NCBI RefSeq assembly: GCF_003063545.1
Contig: NZ_NESD01000002.1
Coordinates: 434,001-498,000 of the forward strand
Length of the DNA: 64,000 nt
Origin: Limnohabitans sp. Jir61
GTDB taxonomy: Bacteria > Pseudomonadota > Gammaproteobacteria > Burkholderiales > Burkholderiaceae_C
Direction: 5' to 3'
Below the pieces are notes generated by a model. That model saw nothing but the letters and a program-made list of their open reading frames with translations. It was not told the origin of the DNA and searched no databases. Below are positions 10,461 to 63,124 of this stretch, piece after piece (within the stretch, counting starts at the first letter, position 1; each line of letters begins with the position of its first letter). Both the position numbers and the translations under genes were made by a program.

Positions 10461-10536
10461 CAGAGCGGCCAGCACCTGACACGGCTTAGCGTCCCTGCGG
10501 GCCGTGATGGCGCCGTATCAGGCGCTGACCACTCTG
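10461..10536 (-). repeat. Long-stem hairpin element A1
   Basis: A 24-nt left arm (10461-10484) pairs with the right arm (10513-10536) at 20 of 24 positions, enclosing a 28-nt loop (10485-10512). The four non-complementary positions are all C/A pairs on the plus strand, which become G.U on the minus strand. The strand is therefore given as minus. The loop is almost the exact reverse complement of the A2 loop (26 of 28), while the arms are unrelated to those of A2. No T-run follows, so it is not an ordinary terminator. Confidence 0.85.
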
Positions 10537-10647
10537 CGCGCTGAAAGTGAGCGCTAGAACTGTGTTGGTATTTGCTCCTGCTTCTCAGTTCGATGACACA
10601 GTGAGCACCGCAGATTTGCATGCACGAGGTTTTTCGTACAACCAAAA

Positions 10648-10728
10648 CGCCGAGAGCGCGGTGTCTGATTTGGCGCCATCACGGCCCGAAGGGACGTTAA
10701 GCCAAGTCAGACACCGCGCTCTCGCCGT
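10648..10728 (+). repeat. Long-stem hairpin element A2
   Basis: A 23-nt arm (10651-10673) pairs with 10702-10724, the only non-Watson-Crick position being a T.G wobble on the plus strand. Three more pairs follow after one mismatch. The 28-nt loop (10674-10701) contains CGGCCCGAAGGGACG, which can form its own small hairpin. It points away from A1 and shares its loop sequence. It lies 69 bases past the aroG stop codon, antisense to aroG. Confidence 0.85.
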
Positions 10729-10749
10729 ACGGGCATCAAAGAAGCTCAA

Positions 10750-10782
10750 CCTTGCGCGAGGAATTCAAATCCCAGCGCAAGG
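10750..10782 (-). terminator. Hairpin downstream of aroG
   Basis: CCTTGCGC (10750-10757) pairs perfectly with GCGCAAGG (10775-10782) around a 17-nt loop, about 15 bases after the aroG stop codon. Only a weak T-rich stretch follows on the minus strand, so efficient intrinsic termination is uncertain. Confidence 0.4.
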
Positions 10783-10796
10783 AAAGCAACACGCAA

Positions 10797-11906
10797 TTAA
10801 CCGCGCTTGCGACGCGCAGCCACAGCGTGAGACAACACGTCCAACGAAGCGACCGAGTCATCCCAATCCAAGCACGCATCGGTGATGCTCTTGCCGTATT
10901 CCAGCTTAGACACATCGTCCTTTCCTGGCGTGAACTTCTGAGCACCGCCTTGAATGTGGCTTTCAATCATCACGCCAAACACTTGGTTTGAACCACCACT
11001 GATTTGCTCGGCGATGTCTTTAGCCACCACCAACTGACGTTCGTGTTGTTTGCTGCTGTTGGCGTGGCTGCAATCCACCATCAAGGTGGCTGGCAACTTA
11101 GCTTTGGCCAATTCTTCACAGGCGGCGGTCACACTAACTGCGTCGTAGTTCGGGGCTTTTCCGCCACGCAAAATGACGTGGCAATCTTTGTTGCCCTTGG
11201 TTTGCACAATCGCCACTTGACCGTTTTTGTGCACCGACAAAAAGTGGTGCGCGCCTGCAGCGGCTTGAATCGCATCAGTCGCGATTTTGATGTTGCCGTC
11301 GGTGCCATTCTTGAAACCGATGGGCGCAGAAATACCAGAGGCCAATTCGCGGTGCACTTGGCTCTCGGTCGTGCGCGCGCCAATCGCGCCCCACGAAATC
11401 AAGTCACCAATGTATTGCGGGCTGATGGCATCCAAGAACTCGCTGCCTGCGGGCAAACCGAGGCGGTTAATTTCAATCAGCAGCTGGCGAGCAATGCGCA
11501 GACCTTCGTCGATGCGGTAGCTCTCGTCCAAATACGGGTCGTTGATCAAACCCTTCCAGCCCACGGTGGTACGTGGTTTTTCGAAGTACACGCGCATCAC
11601 AATTTCAAGCGTGTCGGCGTATTTTTCGCGCAGCGGTTGCAAACGACGTGCGTAGTCAATCGCGGCAGCGGGGTCATGGATAGAACATGGACCAATCACC
11701 ACCAGCAGACGGTCATCGCTGCCGTGCATGATGTTGTGAATGGTCTTGCGGGTCTTGGTAATCAGCTTCTCCACGGGCGTGCCCTGAATGGGGAAGAAGC
11801 GAATCAAATGTTCGGGAGGAGGCAGCACGGTGATGTCCTTGATACGTTGGTCGTCGGTTTGACTGGTGTTTTCAACGTGGCTTGGATAACTGGTGTTCGT
11901 TTTCAT
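10797..11906 (-). CDS. aroG: 3-deoxy-7-phosphoheptulonate synthase (DAHP synthase), class I
   Basis: The enzyme condenses phosphoenolpyruvate and erythrose 4-phosphate, the committed entry into the shikimate pathway for aromatic amino acids. The 369-residue protein is type I (AroF/G/H). Family segments are DDRLLVVIGPCSIHDP, YFEKPRTTVGWKGLINDP, GSEFLDAISPQYIGDLISWGAIGARTTES and VDCSHANSSK. The upstream leader region encodes a short peptide rich in Phe and Tyr followed by an intrinsic terminator (see 12010-12078 and 11950-11979), so expression is probably attenuated by Phe/Tyr supply. Which amino acid inhibits the enzyme itself cannot be read from the sequence here. Confidence 0.96.
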   Translation of the reverse strand: MKTNTSYPSHVENTSQTDDQRIKDITVLPPPEHLIRFFPIQGTPVEKLITKTRKTIHNIMHGSDDRLLVVIGPCSIHDPAAAIDYARRLQPLREKYADTLEIVMRVYFEKPRTTVGWKGLINDPYLDESYRIDEGLRIARQLLIEINRLGLPAGSEFLDAISPQYIGDLISWGAIGARTTESQVHRELASGISAPIGFKNGTDGNIKIATDAIQAAAGAHHFLSVHKNGQVAIVQTKGNKDCHVILRGGKAPNYDAVSVTAACEELAKAKLPATLMVDCSHANSSKQHERQLVVAKDIAEQISGGSNQVFGVMIESHIQGGAQKFTPGKDDVSKLEYGKSITDACLDWDDSVASLDVLSHAVAARRKRG

Positions 11907-11949
11907 GGTCTCGTCCTGAAGTTTGAAAAAAGTGATTTAAGAATTTGGC

Positions 11950-60741: not shown

Positions 60742-60870
60742 GGTTTCCTTTTCAGCGGGTAGTACAAAGGTCCGCTGTTGTGAATGGTAGGGGCGATTGC
60801 TGGCAATTCAATGCATGGCATTTAAAAACCACACAAAAGTTAGGCAAAGCCTTGGTTCGATTTAGAAGGT

Positions 60871-61773
60871 TTACGTCGCAAGCGATTTAGGTTTAACCAT
60901 CTCGCGCTTCGGGCGGAACACATTGACGTCTTCGTAATAAGCCCGCTCTGCATTGGCGGCGCACCAACCCGGAATGCCCAGCACAGGCAACGGCTCGTAA
61001 GGTTTGGTGGCGAGCTTCTCGGGTTGCAGGTCTTGCACCAGCCACGCGTCAAGCGCAGCTTCGTCGTGTGGGTTCACTTGACTATCTACACGGTACACAT
61101 GGCCCGTGATCGACTTATAGGGTGTGACAAGTTTTTCCACCAAGGCATGGCCAAACAACACGAGGTGCACGTGTTGCCATTGCTCGCGCAAGTCTACAAA
61201 GAGCTTGAGCCAATCACGCGCTTGCAGTGCGTCCCACACCTCGTCGGGCGCGTGCATGAGCACCACGTTCTCATCAAAGAGTGTGAGTGCATCGCGCACG
61301 GGCCCACGTGTGGCGCGAACGCCTTGGTCTTCAATTTCTGCGGCTTGCAGTTGGTTCAGGCGGCGTTTGGCCAATGGAAAGCGTTGCCAGCACAGGCCGT
61401 TGAAAAAGTCGTGCAAACCGTCTCGAGTGGGGATTTGCGCGGTTTTGAAGATGAAGTCTTCGTAGGCTTGGCCTTCGGGCAGAGCTGATTGGGGGACGAA
61501 CTTCACCTCATTGGCATCGCCAAGCGCCAGGCCAGCACGGAGCGTATTCACGCTCGCTGCGCTCGCAATATCACCCGAGCCAGCGCCGACCTCGCGCTTG
61601 GCTGCGTGATGTATTGCGTTAAGTGCTTCGGCCACGCTTCGCTGCTGAAGCGCAAGTTGCGCCGTGGGCTCACCGAGTTCGCGCCACGGTGCGAACCAGG
61701 GTTGGGACCAATCAATCTCGGCTAAGACAGCGCCTGCAAAGCCTTCTGTTTTTGGACTTAAACCACGCGCCAA
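60871..61773 (-). CDS. DUF3025 domain protein
   Basis: A 300-residue protein matching the DUF3025 pattern: [16 protein letters not shown] start ([14 protein letters not shown]), [20 protein letters not shown] and [14 protein letters not shown]. Function is unknown. The C-terminus ends [14 protein letters not shown] followed by a short basic tail. The TTG at 61773 is the only start that keeps the full conserved N-terminus; it overlaps the pyrC end by 16 bases, so the two are probably translationally coupled. A later start cannot be excluded. Confidence 0.82.
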
Positions 61774-62789
61774 GGCAAGGCCTCGCCAGAGCGCAGGGGC
61801 TTCAAGTCTGCCTCGCCAAACGCAAAGCTTTCGGGCGGCGTCCAGCTTTCTTTACGCAGGGTGAGCGTGCCGGTGTTGCGTGGCAAGCCGTAAAAGTCTG
61901 CGCCGTGGAAGCTGGCGAAGCCTTCAAGTTTGTCGAGCGCGCCTGCGTTATCAAATGCTTCGGCGTACATAGGCATAGCTGCATGGGCGGTGTAGCAACC
62001 GGCACAGCCGGTGGCGTGCTCTTTGAGTTGCGCCGGGTGTGGGGCGCTGTCTGTGCCCAAGAAGAACTTGGGTGAGCCACTGGTGGCCGCATGCACCAAG
62101 GCCAAGCGGTGTGTCTCGCGCTTCAACACAGGCAAGCAATAGAAATGTGGGCGAATGCCGCCGGTGAAGATGGCGTTGCGGTTGTACAGCAAGTGGTGCG
62201 CGGTGATGGTCGCGCCGGTGTACTTGTCGCTCGATGCTACGTATTGCGCGGCGTCAGCGGTAGTGATGTGCTCGAACACAATTTTGAGTTCGGGGAAATC
62301 TTTACGAAGCGGAATGAGCTGCGTGTCGATGAACACAGCTTCGCGGTCAAACAAATCGATGTCGCTGCTAGTGACTTCACCGTGCACCAACAACAACATG
62401 CCCGCCTTTTGCATGGCTTCGAGTGTTTTGTAGGTCTTGCGCATGTCGGTCACGCCGGCATCGCTGTTGGTAGTGGCACCAGCTGGGTAAAGCTTGGCGG
62501 CGACCACACCAGCATCTTTGGCGCGGGCTATTTCGTCTGCGGGCAGGTTGTCGGTGAGGTAGAGCGTCATCAAAGGCTCGAAGCTCATGCCTTGGGGCAC
62601 TGCGGCCAAGATGCGCTGTTTGTACTCAAGCGCTTGCGCCGCCGTGGTGACGGGGGGCTTGAGGTTAGGCATGATGATGGCGCGGCCAAATTCGGCGGCG
62701 GTGTGGGGCACCACGGTGTTGAGTGCAGCGCCATCGCGCACGTGCAGGTGCCAGTCGTCGGGTTTTGTGATGGTGATTTGTTGCGTCAT
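61758..62789 (-). CDS. pyrC: Dihydroorotase
   Basis: PyrC cyclises carbamoyl aspartate to dihydroorotate in pyrimidine synthesis. The 343-residue class II (E. coli-type) enzyme has [13 protein letters not shown] (metal-binding HxH), [12 protein letters not shown] (carboxylated lysine), VHGEV, EHITT and GTDSAPH with the catalytic Asp. The start MTQQITITK (62789) is chosen; the frame extends to 62861 but that extra part overlaps hairpin C1 and lacks family similarity. C1 lies about 40 bases upstream in the orientation of pyrC transcription. Confidence 0.96.
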
Positions 62790-62829
62790 GCCTTGATTGT
62801 CGACGAAGTTGGCTTTGGTTCTGAGCTCG

Positions 62830-62907
62830 CTGTGTGCGCAGGCAGTGAGCAGGTTCCTCATGCTGGGGTACCAGAAATCGTCACCTGCCCACTGCCTCCA
62901 CCCACAG
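62830..62907 (-). repeat. Long-stem hairpin element C1
   Basis: Arms 62830-62854 and 62883-62907 pair at 21 of 25 positions; the two transition mismatches read as G.U on the minus strand, the other two are true mismatches. The 28-nt loop (62855-62882) is the exact reverse complement of the C2 loop. The arms are unrelated to those of C2. Confidence 0.8.
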
Positions 62908-63046
62908 ACTGCGACCTACAAAAGTTGGATTAGAACTGTTGGTGCTACCCAAGTTGCCTCGACGATGACTGCCTTTGCGGTCCTACGCAATAAGCCACCT
63001 CCAGCCAACGCAAACACAATCGCCTGAAATGTTTCAACCAACACCA

Positions 63047-63124
63047 GTTGCGCGGCTTGGGTGCGGCGGCTGACGATTTCTGGTACCCCAGCATGAGGAA
63101 GCCGCCGTACCCAAGCTGCGCAAC
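63047..63124 (+). repeat. Long-stem hairpin element C2
   Basis: Arms 63047-63071 and 63100-63124 pair over 25 positions with only two non-Watson-Crick pairs, both G.T on the plus strand. The 28-nt loop (63072-63099) includes GACGATTTCTGG and CAGCATGAG, resembling the B loop (CGATTT...GG and GCATGAG). Total length of 78 nt equals that of C1. Confidence 0.88.

Follow-up and report, generated by a model that had tools for sequence, protein, structure and literature searches.

A family of paired hairpins with conserved loops and variable stems in Limnohabitans

Repetitive extragenic palindromic (REP) sequences usually keep their stem and vary their loop, and in REPINs two inverted hairpins form a mobile unit. 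REPs of the GTAG and CGTC groups are described as short hairpin repeats that often occur as inverted homo- or heterodimers, with stems of 5-13 or 8-9 bp and, for the CGTC superfamily, a stem of 8-9 bp and a loop of 4-5 nt (PMC3733652; this paper and the others cited below are used in excerpt). According to the same excerpt, REPs occur in repair genes of other species, uvrA included, CGTC repeats have no linked transposase, and a few REP dimers lie within palindromes (PMC3733652). Here we describe a family of hairpin pairs noticed at three loci (A, B and C; Table 1) of a 64-kb stretch of the Limnohabitans sp. Jir61 genome (contig NZ_NESD01000002.1, positions 434,001 to 498,000), the whole of which is referred to as the window. 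Like REP dimers, these elements are short, repeated, inverted, located near gene ends and at times within repair genes; like CGTC REPs as excerpted, they are mostly inverted dimers (14 of the 20 sites in this genome) with no linked transposase (PMC3733652). They differ from the CGTC REPs of that excerpt in having arms of 22-40 nt and loops of 24-42 nt, and in that the loop, rather than the stem, defines the family: the loop is its conserved part and the stem its variable part.

Hairpins were scored with +1 for a match, -2 for a mismatch and a loop of up to 60 nt. At a cut-off of 13 the window holds exactly six, all of them at the three loci, and one first-order Markov resample of the window holds none. 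Their arms measure 25-30 nt and their loops 25-28 nt (39 nt in the right hairpin of B before its inner foot). The initial annotation had proposed pairs of long-stem hairpins at these places, with loops that are inverted copies of each other and stems that are unrelated, and this description stands: inverted loop identity is 24/26 in A, 25/25 in B and 28/28 in C, and no likeness is seen among the stems within or between loci. Its view that loop sequence drifts from locus to locus has to be given up, in that the three loci represent three loop types, each recurring elsewhere in the genome, and the loop is conserved within these few types. The annotation could put no name to the hairpins, and Rfam at gathering thresholds likewise gave no match to those of the window; when 12 family loci were compared with Rfam at E <=0.5, five matches appeared, all sub-threshold. 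No T-tract was seen 3' of the window hairpins. Comparing locus A with plasmids by BLAST, we found 42 nt matched in 12 Cronobacter records, which was judged to be chance.

A covariance model of the family was built on seven hairpins (loci A and B and two further loci). Applied to the source genome (G000; other G numbers denote compared genomes) at E <=10, it gave 20 rows that resolve to 18 hairpins, one row being the reverse reading of a hairpin already counted and another (E 2.7) being judged chance. A DNA search of the genome with locus B returned mostly chance matches, yet pointed to loci D and E, and further hairpins came from stem scans of the model loci and of an even 400-kb sample, together with a pattern search for the type-3 loop. 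Altogether, G000 contains at least 34 hairpins at 20 sites, a lower bound since the stem scan covered part of the genome and the model missed the type-3 hairpins of the window. Three sites lie in the 64-kb window and, by stem scan, three in the 400-kb sample. The 20 sites comprise 14 pairs and 6 singles, so that the elements do not always come as divergent pairs, a point the annotation had raised; all 14 pairs nevertheless are divergent, with the minus-then-plus order already noted at the window loci. Both members carry the same loop type in 12 of the 14 pairs, as had been seen in the window, and the other two pairs mix two types. Within the loop, an inner mini-hairpin with a GNA triloop was recognized by eye in 18 of 26 own hairpins. 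In three own type-1 pairs (A, L032 and L037) the left tip is GCA and the right tip GAA, which makes the two ends distinguishable. A pair at L040 (1361-1570) can also be read as a single inverted repeat with 78-nt arms, the sequence beside its loops being complementary.

The division between a conserved loop and a variable but paired stem is best seen among type-3 hairpins. Mean loop identity over the 11 own copies is 93%, against 51% and 47% for the 20 inner bases of the arms, a pattern opposite to that usual in REPs, as had been proposed; each of these 20 positions is paired (G.T counted) in 9-11 of the 11 copies. Of 37 type-3 loops, 35 passed the stem rule, and the other two have 24-nt arms shifted by one base. 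The stems of these 35, from four genomes, are 22-29 bp long and most often 25 bp. Moreover, the loop predicts the stem: a search of a public genome set for the exact loop core, made blind to the stem, returned 29 matches. These lie in 27 stretches, all with titles naming Limnohabitans, Comamonadaceae or Burkholderiales. A stem scoring at least 12.5 lies under 28 of the 29 matches versus 1 of 1500 positions drawn at random from the same DNA. Where a locus has two type-3 loops, exactly one 5' arm ends in GGT in 14 of 15 cases, orthologues counted, which indicates that the unit usually has two unlike ends.

The two strands of the hairpins are not equivalent. Read on the loop-plus strand, 26 own hairpins contain 59 G.T and 7 A.C mismatches, and the 5' arm has G+T above one half in 24 of the 26; under strand-neutral scoring, hairpins on the minus strand alone still give 24 G.T versus 6 A.C. 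The excess of G.T over A.C means that selection for the structure, or its formation, takes place on one strand. Thus, one strand is the structured one, whether as RNA or as DNA.

Beyond the source genome, the type-3 loop (with up to two mismatches) is present in 12 of 61 genus genomes, with 12 copies in G000, 16 in G047, 17 in G057, 13 in G052 and 12 in G049; the reversed control pattern has no match in the same 61 genomes. The covariance model matched 19 of these 61, so the search for relatives that the initial annotation called for did find them. It also matched 1 of 150 genomes in a sample of the order, namely G000 itself, and 9 of 200 in a sample of the family, 6 of which lie outside the genus, some with weak matches. 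One genome of another genus (G295) has a divergent pair whose arms measure 31 and 34 nt and whose loops are identical, inverted copies. No exact match to the two loop cores searched was found in a virus collection. The hairpins are therefore a multi-type family of the Limnohabitans clade, and a search of the literature in a limited library found no report of it.

Comparison of orthologous sites shows that the elements are mobile, in agreement with the initial proposal of a family of structured mobile or regulatory elements, which had called for just this comparison of filled and empty sites. At a site designated K, 14 genomes were compared, three of which matched one flank only and one neither. 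Two genomes (G052 and G049) are filled, holding some 280-300 bases more between a stop codon and the gene that follows; G046 retains a scar consisting of the outer parts only; and in seven genomes (G000, G057, G047, G009, G040, G011 and G059) the same anchors are 16-57 nt apart and enclose no pair. No target duplication is readable at K. The elements at K and at locus A are related, with inner stem parts that match and outer parts that differ. Among 30 regions orthologous to locus A, 4 are filled at the same place, 2 have remnants and 24 have neither. Single hairpins are also lost or altered: the left hairpin of locus E is missing in G009, and that of locus B is gone in G052 apart from the beginning of its outer arm; the survival of this piece indicates that the hairpin was probably lost by deletion. 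In L169, a metagenome-assembled genome, half a hairpin is fused to half its partner (near 1658 on the reverse complement), reflecting either a deletion or an assembly error.

In addition, two hairpins stand in frame within coding genes, one in uvrA and one in mutS. At the uvrA site, 12 of the 30 regions examined hold a hairpin in a stretch of exactly 98 nt. Across these 12 genomes 92% of stem cells are paired and 17 of 27 pairs have changed on both sides, giving a covariation score of 0.520 compared with 0.199 (standard deviation 0.023) for shuffles and at most 0.162 for slid structures. The loop has been inverted at a fixed site within otherwise unchanged genes in uvrA of G041 and in mutS of G011. 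The mutS genes of G047 and G052 contain 15 additional nt that are exactly the reverse complement of the 5' arm, whereas the neighbouring copy matches that arm at only 12 and 11 of 15 positions. The mutS gene of G041 no longer has the loop; its 15-bp stem (one G.T) mirrors host sequence, and this sequence is also present, in non-palindromic form, in the empty gene of G040. Another, unlike palindrome (AATTAATTGG, GGGGTCAGA) is found beside locus C (window 63190-63225) and beside a RAYT gene (REP-associated tyrosine transposase; L079 2486-2514), and in L115, L117 and L121 it occupies the uvrA insertion site used elsewhere by the hairpin family. This position in uvrA looks like a common hot spot for hairpin inserts.

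How the stems change was assessed in 12 usable orthologous comparisons, a set to which uvrA and a number of groups with other loops, type 4 among them, do not contribute. Altogether 80 stem positions changed, 29 of them on both sides, and 27 of these 29 are paired in both genomes. For example, G000 and G052 share the same loop at the same place in one intergenic site, while 17 of the 31 pairs of their stems differ, including 11 with changes on both sides. Besides uvrA of G041 and mutS of G011, a third site shows an inversion, which in G052 takes in about 110 nt with the whole hairpin. Multi-base homogenization of the arms is seen in mutS of G047/G052 and of G041; over the sites compared the both-sided changes are unclustered. 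Arm homogenization and inversion of the spacer are stated outcomes of template switching (PMC8604942), and PMC8794818 argues that template switching creates and maintains hairpins. The few cases of arm homogenization, loop inversion and new reverse-complement stem seen here resemble the mutations treated in those excerpts, but the cases there concern RNA genes and yeast coding sequence, whereas here the substrate is a dispersed bacterial repeat in which most both-sided changes lie outside blocks (PMC8794818, PMC8604942).

On balance, we lean toward the view that the hairpin pairs are a short, non-autonomous, two-ended REP-like mobile element whose tips are read by a factor acting in trans, and whose stems change by compensation with occasional template switching. 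Each end of the element is a hairpin that presents a conserved tip, a loop that usually contains a GNA-capped inner mini-hairpin, on a long stem. A trans-acting factor would recognize the tip on one single strand, which may be DNA during transposition, or RNA. The stem may be needed only as a duplex, leaving its sequence free to change as long as pairing holds. Its changes would come from compensatory mutation and, at least occasionally, from template switching at the hairpin; such switching could copy one arm onto the other, draw flanking host sequence into the stem or invert the loop. Acting together, compensation and switching could produce stems that look locus-specific.

Several observations weigh against this view, or limit the part that template switching can have in it. 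No mobilizing gene is linked to the hairpins, and stem classes recur in type-3 pairs, which indicates that stems travel with the element. In the 12 comparisons, 51 of the 80 changed stem positions are one-sided and 7 comparisons lack both-sided changes altogether. There are 6 adjacent both-sided pairs against about 7 expected, and in uvrA 4 against 4.1 (G000/G057) and 6 against 7.8 (G000/G058); since both-sided changes are unclustered, block copying is not the main source of stem change. The uvrA counts are themselves inflated by relatedness, as most of the both-sided changes there separate stem groups of 8 and 4. Moreover, there are few footprints of template switching, and these were identified in alignments with no ancestral method applied. 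Most both-sided changes thus look like separate compensations, and template switching is an occasional contributor at most.

The same pattern of compensation could arise if selection acted at the RNA level alone, with the hairpins serving as RNA structures at gene ends (stabilizers, or two-way barriers to decay or read-through) whose stems change stepwise; we give this a substantial chance, somewhat short of even. It would account for G.T far exceeding A.C on one strand, for both-sided changes that are scattered rather than in blocks, and for the placement of 14 intergenic sites, of which 8 are convergent, 5 co-directional and 1 divergent when neighbours are taken by longest reading frame, and a divergent pair would supply one loop-plus hairpin for each direction of transcription. 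Copies in frame within uvrA and mutS fit such a role poorly, as do the loop inversions, a 15-nt mutS insertion exactly complementary to the other arm, the lack of a T-tract after the window hairpins, and the GNA triloops, which are a DNA-hairpin motif. Furthermore, the orientation of 3 of the 4 intergenic singles is uninformative, since these stand between convergent genes and are sense to one of them either way round. The hairpins might instead end a miniature inverted-repeat transposable element of a classical transposon or insertion sequence whose autonomous parent was not found. Two unlike ends in a fixed relative orientation, insertion of the whole unit at K and recurring stem classes are what this predicts, but the missing target duplication at K, spacers with little conservation, the existence of singles and the lack of exact loop-core matches in the virus collection make it rather doubtful. 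That loops insert into pre-existing palindromes, the stems being their targets, seems very improbable. Stems do differ between sites, and some REP dimers lie inside palindromes in the excerpted account (PMC3733652), but with arms above 20 nt, a loop of 25-45 nt and a score of at least 14, the 400-kb sample holds three family hairpins and one other (L092:5236), two other hairpins there score 13, and a comparable stem underlies just 1 of 1500 random positions. Site K shows no such palindrome where the pair is absent, and at none of the aligned orthologous sites was an intact palindrome without a loop seen. The elements may also be self-templating palindromes that inherit no recognition sequence other than the tip and in which a copy can rebuild or lengthen its stem from neighbouring DNA, host codons included, by template switching; we regard this as quite unlikely. 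If true, such an element would keep a structure but not the sequence of it and rewrite the host proteins MutS and UvrA as it does so.

Finally, the family could belong to the ordinary REP/REPIN system of the genome's one RAYT gene, which is unlikely on the evidence below. The only Y1 transposase gene found in G000 is RAYT-like (79.3 bits against a cut-off of 80). The corresponding domain, PF01797, occurs in all 19 genus genomes with model matches versus 28 of the 42 without, a co-occurrence that is suggestive but ignores descent and genome completeness. In G049, G041 and G031 one family hairpin stands alone roughly 1 kb from the RAYT gene, one gene away, between two upstream genes (L222/L339, L337 and L338); the three have nearly the same loop and different stems, and G000 has no hairpin at that place. 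Against this, the 4-kb stretch around the RAYT gene of G000 contains no family hairpin and is marked by a different palindrome (AATTAATTGGG...) adjoining the gene, only 1 of 30 RAYT loci (G031) has a family hairpin in its flanks, again one gene away, and no direct flanking of a Y1 gene was seen at the RAYT loci examined. The sequence tags do not fit either. A general GTAG tag was not found in the family, and a CGTC tag is not general: GACG (CGTC reversed) starts type-3 loops only, CGAC occurs in type 4, and types 1 and 2 have neither at that position. Because stem length and tag differ, we do not file the family with the CGTC or GTAG REPs. It resembles REPIN/RAYT systems in having two inverted hairpins as a mobile unit, but differs in lacking a direct RAYT link and in the reversed conservation of stem and loop; such systems are the subject of PMC3116915.

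Further afield, the in-gene copies recall two other systems. Rickettsia palindromic elements, likened here by their description as mentioned in the excerpt of PMC3733652, are also palindromic inserts within genes, and the coding palindromes of Nematomorpha mitochondria are long inverted repeats inside coding genes (PMC6649704); for the latter, however, the excerpted text describes no dispersed element with a conserved loop. The family reverses the usual REP logic by keeping the loop and freeing the stem. With dozens of orthologous and paralogous hairpins, some in DNA-repair genes, it allows stepwise compensation and template switching to be compared in bacteria, and its strand-specific structure opens the way to a search for the user, be it an enzyme or RNA. 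No supporting feature was seen for integron attC sites, dif sites or the ends of retrons or Helitrons, which were considered as well.

Table 1. Positions of the hairpins and adjoining genes in the window
Feature	Positions	Strand	Remarks
Locus A, left hairpin	10461..10536	-	25-nt arms, 26-nt type-1 loop; tip GCA triloop (minus-strand reading)
Locus A, spacer	10537..10646		110 nt; little conservation among orthologues
Locus A, right hairpin	10647..10728	+	28-nt arms; left loop inverted; GAA triloop
Locus B, left hairpin	43947..44031	-	30-nt arms, 25-nt type-2 loop
Locus B, right hairpin	44119..44209	+	26-nt arms, internal loop, 3-bp foot, left 25-nt loop inverted
Locus C, left hairpin	62830..62907	-	25-nt arms, 28-nt type-3 loop
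Locus C, right hairpin	63047..63124	+	25-nt arms; loop is an identical inverted copy of that of C left
mpl	8960..10402	+	left of locus A
AroG-like DAHP synthase gene	10797..11906	-	right of locus A; convergent with mpl
RlmI-like rRNA methyltransferase gene	42627..43850	-	left of locus B; match below curated cut-off
XerC-like recombinase gene	44231..45292	-	right of locus B; match just below curated cut-off
pyrC	61758..62861	-	left of locus C
GlnQ-like ABC ATPase gene	63230..63967	-	right of locus C; match below curated cut-off

Among the neighbouring genes, pyrC is overlapped by a hairpin: the left hairpin of locus C covers the first codons of its longest reading frame. The only Rfam match in the window at gathering thresholds is a class A RNase P RNA at 54957-55276 on the minus strand, away from the three loci.

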